Below are positions 31,242-35,889 of a stretch of DNA of 56,729 nt, piece after piece. The notes under the pieces were generated by a model. It had not been told where the DNA came from. It did no database searches and saw only the letters and a program-made list of their open reading frames with translations. Position 1 is the first letter of the stretch, and the number at the start of each line of letters is the position of its first letter. The DNA comes from Oscillospiraceae bacterium (GTDB lineage: Bacteria > Bacillota_A > Clostridia > Oscillospirales > Oscillospiraceae): contig CADADE010000029.1 of assembly GCA_902786615.1 (NCBI GenBank), positions 1-56,729 of the forward strand. Reading direction: 5' to 3'. The translations under genes were made by a program, and so were the position numbers.

Positions 31242-32036
31242 TTACTTGGTCAGCAGCGTTTCGTCGGAGTCGATGCTGCCGCCCTTCTGGGCGAACATGT
31301 CGATAAGCTGCTGCTTGGTGAGCTTCTTTTTCTCCTCCCCCTCGATGTCGAGGATGATGTGCCCCTCGTTCATCATGATGAGGCGGTTGCCGTGGCGGAT
31401 CGCGTCCTTCATGTTGTGGGTGATCATCAGGGTAGTGAGATTATGCTCCTGCACGATCTGATCCGACAGCTCCAGCACCTTGGCGGCGGTGCCGGGGTCC
31501 AGTGCCGCGGTGTGCTCATCGAGAAGCAGAAGCTTCGGCTCGCGCAGCACCGCCATCAGAAGCGTGACCGCCTGGCGCTGACCGCCGGAGAGCAGGCCGA
31601 CCTTGGAGGTCAGGCGATCCTCCAGCCCCAGGCCCAGGATTTTCAGCTTCTCATGGTACTCCTCGCGCTCGGCGTTGGTGACGCCCCATTTGAGGCCGCG
31701 CGGCTGACCGCGGCGGGCGGCGAGGGCGAGGTTTTCCTCCAGCTGCATGTTGGGCGCGGTGCCCATCATGGGGTCCTGGAACACGCGGCCGATCAGGTGG
31801 GCGCGCTTATACTCCGGCAGGGCGGTGATGTCGTGCCCGTCGAGGATGATGCGCCCCTCGTCCACGGGCCAGACGCCCGCGACGGCGTTGAGCATGGTGG
31901 ACTTGCCCGCGCCGTTGCCGCCGATGACGGTGACGAAGTCGCCGGGCCTGAGGTGCAGGCTCAGGCCGTTGAGGGCCTTTTTCTCATTGATGGTGCCGGG
32001 GTTGAAGGTCTTGGAAATGTTCTCGAGCTTCAGCAT
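31242..32036 (-). CDS. ABC transporter ATP-binding protein (TrpZ/COG1101 type)
   Basis: A 264-residue ATPase. Walker A GGNGAGKST (about 38-46), Q-loop VFQDP (about 86-90), signature LLSGGQRQ (about 148-155), Walker B LLLLDEHTAALDP (about 169-181) and the switch histidine ITHNMKDA are intact; the E-H-T variant after Walker B is typical of this subfamily. Start at MLKLENISK with GAGGAG upstream; a longer frame reads into the permease gene. Third gene of the binding protein-permease-ATPase operon. Confidence 0.9.
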   Translation of the reverse strand: MLKLENISKTFNPGTINEKKALNGLSLHLRPGDFVTVIGGNGAGKSTMLNAVAGVWPVDEGRIILDGHDITALPEYKRAHLIGRVFQDPMMGTAPNMQLEENLALAARRGQPRGLKWGVTNAEREEYHEKLKILGLGLEDRLTSKVGLLSGGQRQAVTLLMAVLREPKLLLLDEHTAALDPGTAAKVLELSDQIVQEHNLTTLMITHNMKDAIRHGNRLIMMNEGHIILDIEGEEKKKLTKQQLIDMFAQKGGSIDSDETLLTK

Positions 32037-32041
32037 GCTCC

Positions 32042-32986
32042 TCAGGCCCCCTTCCTTTTCAGCTTGGCAAAGGAGCTCTTCTTCTGGCCCCGCAGATAGG
32101 GCACGGCGAGAAACAGCGCCACGACGATGGCGGTGAAGAGCTTCAGGTCGTTGGAGTTGAGCTTCAGCCACAGGACGATGACGATGACGAGGTAATACAC
32201 GATGCCGCCGATGACGGTAAAGGTCAGCGTACCGTAGAAGTTGAGGCGTTTGCCGAGGATGGCGTTGCCCACCACCTCACCGATAATGACGGCGGCAAGG
32301 CCGATGACGATGGCGCCGCGGCCCATGTTGATATCCGCGAAGCCCTGATACTGGGCGAGCAGGCCGCCGGCGAGGGCGACAATGCCGTTGGAGAGCGAGA
32401 GGCCCAGCACCTTCATATTGTCGATGTTGATGCCGAGGGCGCGGCTCATGGCGGGGTTATTGCCGGTGGCGCGGATGGCGGAGCCCTGCTCGGTGCCGAA
32501 GTACCAGTAGAACACGCTCACCAGCGCGACGGCGATGATCGCCCCGGTGAGGATGGCGGACGGGATGTTGCGGGAGGAGAGCAGCAGATTGTATTTATCC
32601 ACGCTGACGGCCTTGTTCGCCGCCATGCCCATAATGTGCAGGTTCACGGAATAGAGGGAAAACTGGGTCAGGATACCGGCGAGGATGGCGGGGATGCCGA
32701 GCTTTGTGTGCAGGATGCCGGTCACAAAGCCGGCGAGAAGCCCCGCCAGCATGGCGATCAGCAGCGCCGCCCAGGCGGGCCAGCCCGCGAGGATCAGCAT
32801 GACGGTCACGGCGCCGCCCGTGGTGAACGAGCCGTCCACCGTCAGATCCGCCACGTCCAGCAGGCGGAAGGTGATGTAAATGCCCAGGGCCATGATGCCC
32901 CAGATAATGCCCTGGGACACGCCGCCGGGCATATTGCGGAAGAGCTTCAGAATACTCAGCGAAGCGAAATAGCTTGTTATTGTCAC
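32042..32986 (-). CDS. ABC transporter permease (TrpY/COG4120 type)
   Basis: A 314-residue permease with eight to nine membrane helices, starting GVSQGIIWGIMALGIYITFRLLDVADLTVDGSF (about 22-54), a family hallmark. Start is GTG, with a GAGGTG site seven bases upstream. Such permeases pair with COG2984 binding proteins and are predicted to move aromatic amino acids or related small molecules. The ATPase gene follows after five bases. Confidence 0.88.
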   Translation of the reverse strand: MTITSYFASLSILKLFRNMPGGVSQGIIWGIMALGIYITFRLLDVADLTVDGSFTTGGAVTVMLILAGWPAWAALLIAMLAGLLAGFVTGILHTKLGIPAILAGILTQFSLYSVNLHIMGMAANKAVSVDKYNLLLSSRNIPSAILTGAIIAVALVSVFYWYFGTEQGSAIRATGNNPAMSRALGINIDNMKVLGLSLSNGIVALAGGLLAQYQGFADINMGRGAIVIGLAAVIIGEVVGNAILGKRLNFYGTLTFTVIGGIVYYLVIVIVLWLKLNSNDLKLFTAIVVALFLAVPYLRGQKKSSFAKLKRKGA

Positions 32987-33061: not shown

Positions 33062-34018
33062 TTACGCGGCAGCCTCGATGGCCTCGTAGCCCTCGGGGAC
33101 GGTGATGCCGAGAATGTCGCAGTTCGTCTTGTTGAACTTCTTGGCGAAGGGGGCGTACTGGATCTCCATCGTGGCGACGTCCGCGCCCTCGGAGAGGATC
33201 TTCGCGGCCATCTCGCCGGTCACGGTGCCGAGATCGTAGTAGGAGATGGAGAGGGTGGCCACGCCGCAGCCGGCGCAGAGGTTCTCCTCACCGCAGACGA
33301 TGGGGATCTTCTTGGACAGGGCCACGTTGTTGATGAGCTCCGCGTTGGAGGCGGCGGTGTTGTCGGTGGGGATGTAGAGCACGTCGCAGTCGTCGCAGGC
33401 GTTATTCGTGACGGCGGAAACGTCGTTGGAGTCAGCGAAGGTGTAGTCCGTGACCTTGTAGCCCATCTCTTCGAGGACGGGGCGCATCTCATCGGCCTGG
33501 AACTTGGAGTTGGGCTCGCCGGAGCAGTAGAGCAGGCCGACGTTCTTGACGTCGGGGAACAGCTCGTTCAGCACGCCTGCCAGCTCCTTGGCGGGCACGC
33601 CGTCGGAGGTGCCGGAGATGTTGGTGCCGGTGGAGCCCTTCCAGTCGTCGATGTCAAGCGCGGAGGCGTAGTCGGTGACGGAGGTGCCGAGCACGGGGAT
33701 CTTGTTGGTGGCAGCCTGGGCGGCCAACAGGGCGGGCGTGGCGTTGGCGAGGATCAGGTCGACCTCGTCGGACACGAACTGGTTGCAGATGACGGCACAG
33801 GTGGCGGAATCGCCGGAGGCGTTCTGCTCGACAAAGCTGACCTTGTCGCCGAGCGCCTTGGTCAGGGCGTCCTTGAAGCCCTGGGTGGCGGCGTCAAGCG
33901 CGGGGTGCTGCACCAGCTGGCAGACGCCGACGGTGTAGGAATCGGCGGCAAAGGCGGAGGGGGCGGCCAGCGCAAAGACCATGGTCAGCGCGAGGATGAG
34001 CGTCAGGATCTTTTTCAT
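33062..34018 (-). CDS. ABC transporter substrate-binding protein (TrpX/COG2984 type)
   Basis: A 318-residue exported two-domain binding protein. Residues 1-24 are a signal peptide ending in Ala-Phe-Ala followed by Ala-Asp; there is no lipobox cysteine, unusual for a Gram-positive binding protein. The mature part shows the family pattern VGVCQLVQHPALDAATQGFKDAL at its start and ILANATPALLAAQAATNKIPVLGTSV (about 92-117). The upstream leader peptide is tyrosine-rich, which points to tyrosine or a tyrosine-linked signal as the regulated ligand. First gene of the operon, with an AAAGGAG site. Confidence 0.88.
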   Translation of the reverse strand: MKKILTLILALTMVFALAAPSAFAADSYTVGVCQLVQHPALDAATQGFKDALTKALGDKVSFVEQNASGDSATCAVICNQFVSDEVDLILANATPALLAAQAATNKIPVLGTSVTDYASALDIDDWKGSTGTNISGTSDGVPAKELAGVLNELFPDVKNVGLLYCSGEPNSKFQADEMRPVLEEMGYKVTDYTFADSNDVSAVTNNACDDCDVLYIPTDNTAASNAELINNVALSKKIPIVCGEENLCAGCGVATLSISYYDLGTVTGEMAAKILSEGADVATMEIQYAPFAKKFNKTNCDILGITVPEGYEAIEAAA

Positions 34019-34166
34019 TTCGGTGTTCTCCTTTTATTGTATTTGTGCTTTTGGTTTTCGGCGGGGAGGGATAAATCGTGAGCGCCGCCCGGATGCAAGT
34101 CCGTGCGGCGCCGATCAGGGGCTTTGCCCCTTCTCATAAGACCTTTTTTGGCAGCACGAACCGCTA

Positions 34167-34223
34167 TTACTTTTTATAATAGTAATAGGAATACAGTCCG
34201 TATGCACTACGCGGTCTCAGCAT
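34167..34223 (-). CDS. Tyrosine-rich leader peptide of the TrpX-type transporter operon
   Basis: A reading frame of 18 codons on the transcript leader encodes MLRPRSAYGLYSYYYYKK, ending in tandem stops TAA TAG. Six of 18 residues are tyrosine, four of them consecutive. A GGGAG site lies nine bases before the ATG; another in-frame ATG six bases earlier is too close to it. The frame starts about 22 bases after the expected transcript start. The last codons lie in a stem (CTATTACT 34182-34189 with AGTAATAG 34164-34171), so a stalled ribosome would change folding. It is too short for routine gene calls. Function as a tyrosine attenuator is inference. Confidence 0.75.
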   Translation of the reverse strand: MLRPRSAYGLYSYYYYKK

Positions 34224-34252
34224 GATCATGTCTCCCTTTCGGTGATGGCTAT

Positions 34253-34281
34253 ACTTTAGCGCTTTTTGGCGCTAAAGTCAA
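34253..34281 (-). promoter_or_regulatory. Promoter of the TrpX-type operon with internal operator
   Basis: Minus strand TTGACT, 17 bases, TAAAGT. A perfect inverted repeat, ACTTTAGCGC / GCGCTAAAGT with six-base spacer (34253-34278), spans the -10, the spacer and part of the -35, so a bound dimer would block RNA polymerase. Confidence 0.75.
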
Positions 34282-34515
34282 TGGCGTTTTTCTCCTCTTT
34301 TTGCTTTTCGGTAAAAAGCTACAGGAATTGGAAGGGTGCAAAACCCTCTTTTGTGGAGTTTTTTTGCCGTTTCGGAAGTACGATCCCCTGATCGAAATCC
34401 GGCAGCCCTTCCGGCAAAATTTCTTGTCTGCTTTCTGTCAGGGAATCGTATAATTTCCCCGCAGGCGGGAAATACTCCCGAGTGAAATGAATTTGTGCGC
34501 CGCACCGCCGCAAAA
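34282..34515. other. Intergenic region with candidate LCP promoter and small hairpins
   Basis: No gene is supported here. A TATAAT at 34450-34455 with a weak TTGTCT 19 bases before it could start the LCP transcript. ATTTCCC/GGGAAAT forms a hairpin at about 34453-34473. The segment around 34318-34375, with GGGTGCAAAACCC, looks like low-conservation repeat sequence. Confidence 0.35.
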
Positions 34516-34518
34516 TGG

Positions 34519-34562
34519 CTGTCCCGTCATTGCGAACCGGTGCGCACACCGGTGTGGCAATC
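34519..34562 (+). repeat. Short palindromic dispersed repeat
   Basis: CGTCATTGCGAACC-GGTGCGCACACC-GGTGTGGCAATCCG has outer arms ATTGCGAACC/GGTGTGGCAAT that pair imperfectly and an inner GGTGCGCACACC palindrome. Elements of this form occur widely between genes in gut Firmicutes. It lies in the LCP leader. Confidence 0.5.
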
Positions 34563-34635
34563 CGTTGGCCTTTTGCGGCAGGAGGGCACGCCTGCGGCGT
34601 CACAGGCAATTTACGCTTGCAAAGGGGCGAGGGAA

Positions 34636-35889
34636 ATGGACATGAAAAACTGGAAGCGGTGGCTGATCATCGCAGGAAGCGGCGTGGCCGCTGTGGCCCT
34701 GGCGGTCGTGGGCGGCTATTTTCTCTGGGAGCAGCCGCCGGAGATCGCGTCGGGAAACCCGGTGCTCACGGATCTGAGCCAGGCGGCGGAGACCCCGGCC
34801 GCGCCCTCCGCCCTGCCGAGTCCCACGCCGGACAAGGGCACCGCCTTTGAGACCGAGCGGCAGGACGGGGTCTACACCCTCCTGCTCGCGGGCAGCGACG
34901 ACGGCACCGGCAACACCGACACCATCATGGTCGCAAGGCTCGACACCGTTCGCCACACGGCAAACTTTGTAAGCATCCCGCGCGACACCCTCATCAACAT
35001 CGACAGCCCCATCCGCAAGCTCAACGGGGTCTACTGGACGGCGGTCTACAGCGGGGCCGACGGCAGCGAGGCGCTGCGCCGGCATGTGAAGAAGTTGACC
35101 GGCTTTGACGTGGACTGCTATGCCGTCATCGCGCTGGATGCCTTCCAGCGGGCGGTGGACGCCCTCGGCGGCATCTGGTTCGACGTGCCGCAGCGCATGT
35201 ATTACGAGGACGGCCCGGTCATCGACCTCGAGCCCGGCTATCAGCTTCTGAACGGGGAGCAGGCCATGTGGCTCTGCCGCTTCCGCAGCGGCTATGTCAA
35301 CGGGGATCTCGACCGCATCAAGGTGCAGCACGATTTTCTCAAGGCCGCCGCCGACCAGTTTCTCCAGCTCGGCAGCATCCCGAACATTCCCGAGGTGGTC
35401 TCCATTCTGGCCGAGAGCATGGACACCAACATGACCGCCTCCAACATGGCCTGGTTTGCGCGCCAGCTCCTGCGCTGCCGCAGCGAGGATATCCGCTTTT
35501 TCACCGCGCCGAACACCCCGGCCTATGTGCACGATCTGAGCTACACGTTTCTGGATCTCTACAACTGGATTCAGATGATCAACGACTGTCTCAACCCCAG
35601 CGCCCAGCCGGTGAGCGAGGGTCAGCTCGACCTGGTATATCTCCGGGGCGGCGAGGTCTGCTGTACCTCTACCATTCAGGGCATGTCCTATTTCTCGCTG
35701 GGCAAACGCCAGAGCGCGCCGGAGGAAGCGCCCGCCGAAGAGCCTGTTGAGGAGCTCCAGACGCTGCCGGAGGAGATTCTGCCCCCGCCGGAGAGCTGGA
35801 TCACCGAGACCCCGCTTGAGGACGCGCCGAGCGCCGCGCCCATCCCCTACAGCGCCCCCACGGACGACGACTGGCTGACGGAGCTGTAG
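34636..35889 (+). CDS. LytR-CpsA-Psr (LCP) family protein
   Basis: A 417-residue protein with a short cytoplasmic N-terminus, one membrane helix (about 9-30), a Pro/Thr-rich linker and an extracellular LCP domain (about 75-330). Family residues visible are the GSDDGTGNTDTIMVARLD block (about 91-108), the SIPRDTLINI motif (about 117-126) with its arginine and aspartate, and the later DRIKVQHDFLKA region (about 228-239). The tail is acidic and Pro-rich. LCP enzymes attach teichoic acids or capsule polymers to peptidoglycan. Start is ambiguous between ATGs at 34636 and 34642; each has a purine-rich site about eight bases upstream. Confidence 0.88.
   Translation: MDMKNWKRWLIIAGSGVAAVALAVVGGYFLWEQPPEIASGNPVLTDLSQAAETPAAPSALPSPTPDKGTAFETERQDGVYTLLLAGSDDGTGNTDTIMVARLDTVRHTANFVSIPRDTLINIDSPIRKLNGVYWTAVYSGADGSEALRRHVKKLTGFDVDCYAVIALDAFQRAVDALGGIWFDVPQRMYYEDGPVIDLEPGYQLLNGEQAMWLCRFRSGYVNGDLDRIKVQHDFLKAAADQFLQLGSIPNIPEVVSILAESMDTNMTASNMAWFARQLLRCRSEDIRFFTAPNTPAYVHDLSYTFLDLYNWIQMINDCLNPSAQPVSEGQLDLVYLRGGEVCCTSTIQGMSYFSLGKRQSAPEEAPAEEPVEELQTLPEEILPPPESWITETPLEDAPSAAPIPYSAPTDDDWLTEL

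Follow-up and report, generated by a model that had tools for sequence, protein, structure and literature searches.

Background

The trp and phe operons of Proteobacteria are controlled by leader-peptide attenuators. For the Firmicutes, the literature reports His leader peptides before hisS and hisZ (PMC2965389), his operons with leader-peptide attenuators (PMC9413887) and a Leu leader peptide before ilv of Staphylococcus aureus (PMC5794164). Attenuation of this kind in Firmicutes is treated as absent or limited to few groups in three papers (PMC1262725, PMC2965389, PMC9413887). The uORFC-13-1 motif of Acholeplasma, known from 24 sequences, is described as a small ORF that has one or more Phe codons and is accompanied by an apparent terminator, located before aroF (PMC8632094). 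The transporter operon trpXYZ of Streptococcus suis is reported to be under T-box control, the RNA binding tRNA-Trp directly (PMC9382623). The binding protein CD0873 of Clostridioides difficile is reported to bind tyrosine; Glu-263 holds the Tyr hydroxyl and Tyr-279 hinders Trp (PMC6816091). No tyrosine leader attenuator was recognised in the literature searched, the coverage of which was partial, so that an earlier description is possible.

The window, i.e. the whole stretch of 56,729 bases that was analysed, contains an ABC transporter operon preceded by a tyrosine-rich leader. This leader very probably acts as a ribosome-mediated attenuator of transcription, which would sense how far tRNA-Tyr is charged and adjust the expression of a predicted tyrosine ABC importer accordingly.

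Features of the locus

The features of the leader and of the operon are listed in Table 1. The initial annotation, made from the letters alone, had proposed a minus-strand promoter, a leader with its own ribosome-binding site, an 18-codon frame with four consecutive Tyr codons and tandem stops, Tyr codons within a stem, and a first large gene about 150 bases on. All of these were recovered, the promoter by consensus match only. Six of the 18 codons encode Tyr and none encodes Phe or Trp. Between the TAA of the leader and the ATG of the substrate-binding protein gene (34018) lie 148 bases. The leader has a minimum free energy (MFE) of -76.1 kcal/mol against a mean of -57.7 for shuffled sequences (z -4.1; 1 of 200 shuffles equally good), and the Tyr codons are located within a stem of this fold. 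The run of four Tyr codons is the sole one in the window on both strands. A chance origin of the frame was rejected on this uniqueness and on the conservation of the frame in relatives. A composition-blind ORF rule also found a ribosome-binding site and an ATG here, but chose the ATG at 34229, two codons upstream and only 2 nt from that site.

Table 1. Coordinates of the leader, its predicted RNA elements and the transporter genes in the window
Feature	Coordinates	Strand	Remarks
Promoter-like TTGACT-17-TAAAGT	34253..34281	-	9/12 matches, consensus match only; conserved in leader alignment
Palindrome ACTTTAGCGC-N6-GCGCTAAAGT	34278-34253	-	overlaps -35/-10 of leader promoter
Leader ribosome-binding site GGGAG	34232..34236	-	8 nt before ATG 34223
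Leader ORF MLRPRSAYGLYSYYYYKK and stop TAA	34167..34223	-	further TAG at 34166-34164
Helix 1:2 (pause, anti-antiterminator)	34151..34205	-	MFE fold; RNAalifold (upper part)
Helix 1:2, lower part GCATA	34205-34201		pairs with GTGC end of region 2
Helix 1:2, upper part CTATTACT	34188-34181		pairs with AGTAATAG (34171-34164)
Region 2, antiterminator 5' arm GTTCGTGCTGC	34151..34161	-	pairs with 34109-34099
Region 3 GCCGCACGGAC	34099..34109	-	common to antiterminator and terminator
Terminator hairpin 3:4	34081..34112	-	stem -16.5 kcal/mol; poor U-run GCTCACGAT
Substrate-binding protein, PF04392, CD0873-like	33062..34018	-	E244 and Y260 at tyrosine-specificity columns
ABC permease (BPD_transp_2)	32042..32986	-	profile match
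ABC ATPase, MLKLENISKTF...	31242..32036	-	scanned as 31242-32051

The promoter-like sequence is the only one in the 2.5 kb scanned, where 0.5 would be expected. The arms of the palindrome that overlaps it covary among relatives (GCGC/GCGC, GCAC/GTGC, AACAC/GTGTT), and the palindrome is possibly the operator of some regulator. With one mismatch allowed, 8 of 11 genomes searched have one site each, always at this leader promoter, and a regulon-wide operator was rejected because the sites are confined to it. CIRCE was ruled out by the spacing. No regulator gene adjoining the operon was noticed when the ORFs of 11 loci were inspected by eye. A gene of the LytR-CpsA-Psr family (34495-35889, plus strand) lies divergently upstream of the leader, and similar ORFs look, by eye, to be divergent upstream in several relatives.

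The closest PDB match of the binding protein is CD0873 (6HNI, E 3.5e-45), and its residues E244 and Y260 fall into the columns of Glu-263 and Tyr-279. Among 81 proteins, that of the window included, 79 could be read at the two columns; all 79 have Glu and Tyr there, irrespective of whether a leader is present. The homology to a tyrosine-binding protein and the two specificity residues agree with the initial proposal and point to the operon as a tyrosine importer. The label 'TrpX-type', given at the same time, holds for the fold family but not for the TrpX equivalog: the tryptophan-binding protein profile NF041285 reaches 219.8 bits against a cut-off of 390 and was rejected. A Gln of the Trp-binding protein 3LFT is replaced by Tyr in the window protein.

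Conservation at related loci

Relatives of the binding protein were sought in one genome for each species and are encoded by 540 of the 564 stretches obtained; the best 80 loci were retained. According to the initial annotation, its reading would fail if related genomes had no Tyr-rich frame in common. Such a short ORF, together with the switch, is clear in the same position in 33 of the 80 loci, the assembly titles of which read Ruminococcaceae, Oscillospiraceae, Clostridiales, Clostridia or Eubacteriales. An early composition-blind ORF rule missed 20 loci. The alignment of 33 leaders consists of the window and 32 loci; L002, near-identical to L001, was excluded and was matched later by covariance model R3.

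It had also been suggested that Tyr codons should be kept while other codons drift, and this pattern was observed. Among the 11 closest leaders, Tyr was kept in 408 of 560 pairwise comparisons (73%), Phe in 44 of 180 (24%) and other residues in 514 of 1310 (39%). The corresponding counts for 40 importer leaders are 4832/6864, 1582/3861 and 4635/16770; in both sets the sequences are related, and the scoring of the alignment gives an advantage to Tyr matches. The leaders make use of either Tyr codon (75 TAT, 69 TAC).

In the other 47 of the 80 loci the switch gave no R3 match at E 0.01; one of these, L019, has no upstream sequence. Since the 47 have the same type of binding protein without the switch, the leader is not required for the transporter as such. 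Tyrosine-specificity residues are present, with no aromatic leader recognised, in 45 of the 80 loci (e.g. L029, L033-L035, L042, L043). Two distant importer relatives, L054 (3179-3370) and L074 (3120-3320), have a Tyr/Phe-rich short frame of other sequence and, by eye, a hairpin over the aromatic codons followed by a terminator-like hairpin with a T-run. R3 matches them weakly before the binding protein (E 0.41 and 0.86), and their leaders are possibly a diverged or an independent tyrosine attenuator. The split of 33 versus 47 is therefore one by scaffold and not by the presence of any aromatic leader.

The T-box (RF00230) and the other amino-acid leader families of Rfam were considered and rejected, with no match at gathering score in the window or in 20 switch loci. 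No T-box precedes the binding protein in the 36 switch-less loci that were scanned with Rfam. The single T-box in these 36 lies in L080 (6493-6738), about 2.1 kb past the end of the binding protein gene. A TwoAYGGAY RNA was found by Rfam in L045 (1783-1947), a relative without the switch.

Structure of the leader RNA

Comparison and folding of the 33 aligned leaders indicate an RNA able to form three mutually exclusive helices, 1:2, 2:3 and the terminator 3:4, which is rich in GC. RNAalifold, run unguided, proposed two helices: the upper part of 1:2, in which the Tyr codons CTATTAC pair with GTAATAG around the stop, and 2:3, in which GTTTGTGCTGC pairs with GCCGCACRGAC. The lower part of helix 1:2 was added by the analyst and was not proposed by RNAalifold. 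Shuffles and p-values are indicative throughout, as related sequences are not independent.

In helix 2:3, 97.3% of cells are paired in the 33 leaders, against 21.8 to 60.0% when the helix is slid by 1-3 columns, with six two-sided changes versus 1.2 in shuffles. Across 99 leaders of all kinds, 95.1% of cells are paired and 72 two-sided changes were counted versus 12.7 ± 3.6 in shuffles; this alignment was fitted to the structure and leans towards it. Helix 1:2 (both parts) is paired in 87.6% of cells (at most 62.1% in slid controls), with 21 two-sided changes versus 9.7 in shuffles, all in the upper part. The values for helix 3:4 are 84.0% paired (at most 42.9% slid) and 19 two-sided changes versus 6.7. 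The sequence GTAATAG is kept in leaders whose frame ends elsewhere, e.g. L010, L017 and L032. Its pairing with the Tyr codons makes the tandem stops an element of the RNA structure as well.

At least five U occur in the nine bases after the terminator stem in 31 of the 33 leaders. The window has two, the lowest of the 33, and L027 has three; broken runs (GTTTTCRNT) are present in L003, L008, L015 and L018. The initial annotation had noted that no classic U-run follows and had considered a translational, Rho-linked or processing readout. The observation stands for the window, where termination may be leaky given the weakest U-run of the set. The readout is nevertheless most likely intrinsic termination, because of the runs in the 31 leaders.

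The 33 importer leaders were folded in silico to the end of region 3, with or without a ribosome; the ribosome footprint was taken to end 13 bases past the A-site codon, beyond which the RNA could pair. Mean occupancies cover the 25 leaders with a stop before region 2; the chosen frame extends beyond region 2 in 8 of the 33. Mean antiterminator occupancy is 0.13 in the absence of a ribosome, rises to 0.88 when one sits at the last Tyr codon, and is 0.30 when it has reached the stop. The values for the window are 0.01, 1.00 and 0.09. For most leaders the model thus predicts termination without translation, antitermination upon a Tyr stall, and termination when the ribosome is at the stop. Some of the 25 deviate: occupancy exceeds 0.5 already without ribosome in L006, L027 and L041, it exceeds 0.5 with the ribosome at the stop in L012, L013, L017, L025 and L026, and it stays under 0.5 at the last Tyr in L023 and L026. 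Outside the 25, L009 has a high occupancy without ribosome, and in L018 the occupancy is low for two of the Tyr positions. In control leaders with shuffled codons the no-ribosome occupancy rose to 0.59, and in those with random synonymous codons to 0.54 (25 leaders, 20 versions each). As both controls raise the occupancy, the leader codons appear to be picked for spelling Tyr and for blocking region 2.

Occurrence before other genes

Covariance model R1 was run over 19 genomes that contain loci of this set and matched in 14 of them; there were no matches in five genomes picked because the locus was without a leader. A second copy of the switch was found in 10 of the 14 leader-bearing genomes, nine times before DAHP synthase and once before prephenate dehydrogenase. 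In five of the nine, the DAHP synthase gene has one for prephenate dehydrogenase beside it (L095, L098, L099, L100, L101), and the stretches of the remaining four are too short to show it. Samples from the family, order and class of G001, each including G001 and searched with stricter filters, gave matches in 73 of 250 genomes (R2, E 0.01), 47 of 394 (R3, E 0.01) and 13 of 291 (R3, E 0.001), the last being a low rate.

The second copies from R1 and the matches from family, order and class, except L081, were pooled into a census, and eight duplicates were dropped. This gave 143 further matches in 131 genomes, which were typed by the downstream gene using tblastn. One of nine target gene types follows in 138 of the 143: DAHP synthase (115), binding protein (7), TrpB-like (6), PaaK-like (3), AroB (3), and TyrA, PheA, SSS symporter and TyrS-like (1 each). 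The references for PaaK, AroB, TrpB-like, SSS and TyrS were drawn from the matches themselves after inspection, so only the classes DAHP synthase, TyrA, PheA and binding protein were named in advance. Of the five matches without a tblastn hit, L139 and L175 show by eye the start of a chorismate mutase-PheA-like and of a DAHP synthase-like gene, respectively, each at a contig end, and L179 stops at a contig end. L253 (E 0.0075) and L254 (E 0.0092), where no aromatic gene follows, are probably false matches.

Representative targets were profiled with Pfam (9 proteins) and NCBIfam (8 proteins). The PaaK-like protein of L171 (546.2 vs 646.3), the PheA of L169 (217.6 vs 219, just under) and the TyrA of L135 (140.2 vs 295, Pfam domains present) score below their NCBIfam cut-offs, and the PaaK-like fragment of L153 has no Pfam hit.

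Several rare targets were recorded. In L236 (G413, contig C16, 34330-37200) the switch, with the Tyr-Tyr frame MTRNNVFGTGNYYCKE, stands before a small ORF, behind which lies a tyrosyl-tRNA synthetase-like gene; the model match begins at model position 20, and the TyrS label comes from reading the translation, not from a profile. In L158 (G080) the switch and a Tyr-rich leader precede a sodium:solute symporter gene (PF00474), a candidate for a second tyrosine importer. A TrpB-like PLP enzyme is encoded behind the switch in L185 (G184), L213 (G292), L238, L239, L240 and L249; the enzyme gene of L238 and that of L249 are each followed by one for an SSS symporter. Phenylacetate-CoA ligase-like genes stand behind a switch with a Phe-rich leader in L153 (G037), L171 (G080) and L227 (G723). 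The formation of phenylalanine from phenylacetate is a route of the rumen, and these PaaK-like targets with Phe-rich leaders would fit phenylalanine made in this way.

Leader codons and target product

Leader frames were picked by start codon, ribosome site and length, the amino acids not being used. This rule gave no frame for L200 and L206 and a wrong one for the TyrS leader L236. Importer leaders (n=40) contain 21.5% Tyr and 12.1% Phe, and DAHP synthase leaders (n=114) 17.1% Tyr and 18.8% Phe; the values are 3.0% and 9.0% when the census leaders are read in their two remaining frames. The leaders of PheA and PaaK-like genes (n=5) are Phe-rich, with a Tyr share of Tyr plus Phe of 0.12 to 0.25. 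Trp is present in all six TrpB-like leaders versus 11 of 165 others (Fisher p 4e-7, relatedness uncorrected), three of the six being close copies. The TrpB-like leader of L239 has a Trp-Trp pair, and one Trp also occurs in the leader of L179, which was left out of the test. By sequence the leader codons match the product: Tyr for import, Phe for PheA and PaaK, Trp for TrpB-like. That the codons are exchanged while the scaffold stays the same is the strongest indication that it is the codons that are sensed.

Proposed mechanism and alternatives

When charged tRNA-Tyr is plentiful, the ribosome would reach the stop codon and cover region 2; region 3 would then pair with region 4 and transcription would stop. 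When it is scarce, the ribosome would stall on the Tyr codons and keep region 1 open, allowing 2:3 to pair, which would block the terminator and let the operon be transcribed. If the leader is not translated, 1:2 would form and transcription would terminate by default. Copies of the scaffold that carry Tyr, Phe or Trp codons would act in front of further aromatic amino acid genes of these Clostridia. What is read from sequence here is the conserved frame, the compensated helices, the target genes and the match of codons to product; from these we infer stalling, dependence on tRNA-Tyr charging, termination in the cell and the import of tyrosine by the operon. The attenuation first suggested by the Tyr codons is in this sense supported by the conserved Tyr frame and by the switch before DAHP synthase and prephenate dehydrogenase, the dependence on tRNA-Tyr being part of the inferred portion.

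In control of the TnaC type, the nascent peptide arrests the ribosome upon binding of a small molecule. The leader peptide could likewise be read as a nascent chain that arrests on free tyrosine or another small molecule; the helices would serve in the same way, and a loose pattern R-F-A-x-A-Y-x-Y-Y is seen by eye in importer leaders. We regard this as very unlikely, because length and sequence vary except for the aromatic codons, and the aromatic residue follows the target gene, which fits codon reading better. It may also be argued that arrest at high ligand would turn the importer on when it is unneeded. That the short ORF encodes a functional microprotein instead of a regulatory leader is scarcely credible. 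Its good ribosome site and its conservation in 33 of the 80 loci would suit such a product, but conservation is much stronger for Tyr than for the remaining residues, RNA pairing constrains which codons are used and in what order, and different peptides are found on the same scaffold.

Two variants concern details of the attenuator. Control in the window might be linked to Rho or to translation, the U-run having decayed, as the two U in nine bases and the broken runs of L003, L008, L015 and L018 would allow. Against this, the window retains a stem of -16.5 kcal/mol and all three helix pairings, it switches clearly in silico, and just a 2-bp helix reaches the ribosome site of the binding protein in the MFE fold; the variant is judged unlikely. 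The importer attenuator might also sense Tyr and Phe jointly, which we consider doubtful. Phe codons are also common in importer leaders (12.1% in the 40, compared with 18.8% in the 114 DAHP synthase leaders), and Phe may therefore contribute, but the Tyr share of Tyr plus Phe is 0.64 in importer leaders, 0.48 in DAHP synthase leaders and about 0.19 in PheA and PaaK-like leaders, and the leader of the window contains six Tyr and lacks Phe.

For the wider set, we hold with moderate confidence that one homologous attenuator has been copied around Clostridia genomes and re-addressed to Tyr, Phe or Trp by codon exchange, and that through ribosome stalling it runs an aromatic regulon of synthesis, salvage, tRNA charging and import, in a phylum in which this task is ascribed to T-boxes.

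Comparison with known systems

By its computed features the switch is a ribosome-mediated attenuator, and its target set appears unusually broad and re-addressable. Matches in 73 of the 250 genomes examined for a single family would widen the picture of leader attenuation in Firmicutes. For uncultured Clostridia the switch offers a concrete candidate for the sensing of tyrosine, and it suggests a substrate for a family of transporters to which the label 'TrpX' is often given. Aromatic amino acid genes, PaaK-like and TrpB-like ones among them, can be annotated with its help, since its codons vary with the gene behind it.

Attenuators of Proteobacteria, as described for his in PMC9413887, likewise have a short ORF that carries codons for the amino acid under control, helices 1:2, 2:3 and 3:4, and a terminator before the operon. 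The system described here differs from them in that tyrosine would be the main signal, an importer is a target, the hosts are Clostridia, and one homologous scaffold serves Tyr, Phe and Trp targets. The His and Leu leaders of Firmicutes, compared here by their published descriptions, use the same mechanism for other amino acids and genes; they share with this switch a phylum in which T-boxes are common for amino acid genes. The uORFC-13-1 motif, compared in the same manner, also precedes DAHP synthase, but belongs to another lineage and is described for aroF only. The trpXYZ operon of S. suis encodes a transporter of the same family and is reported to be controlled by tRNA charging, as proposed here; the window instead has a leader ORF and no T-box. 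With CD0873 the window protein shares both specificity residues, and the binding of tyrosine is predicted for it from sequence.
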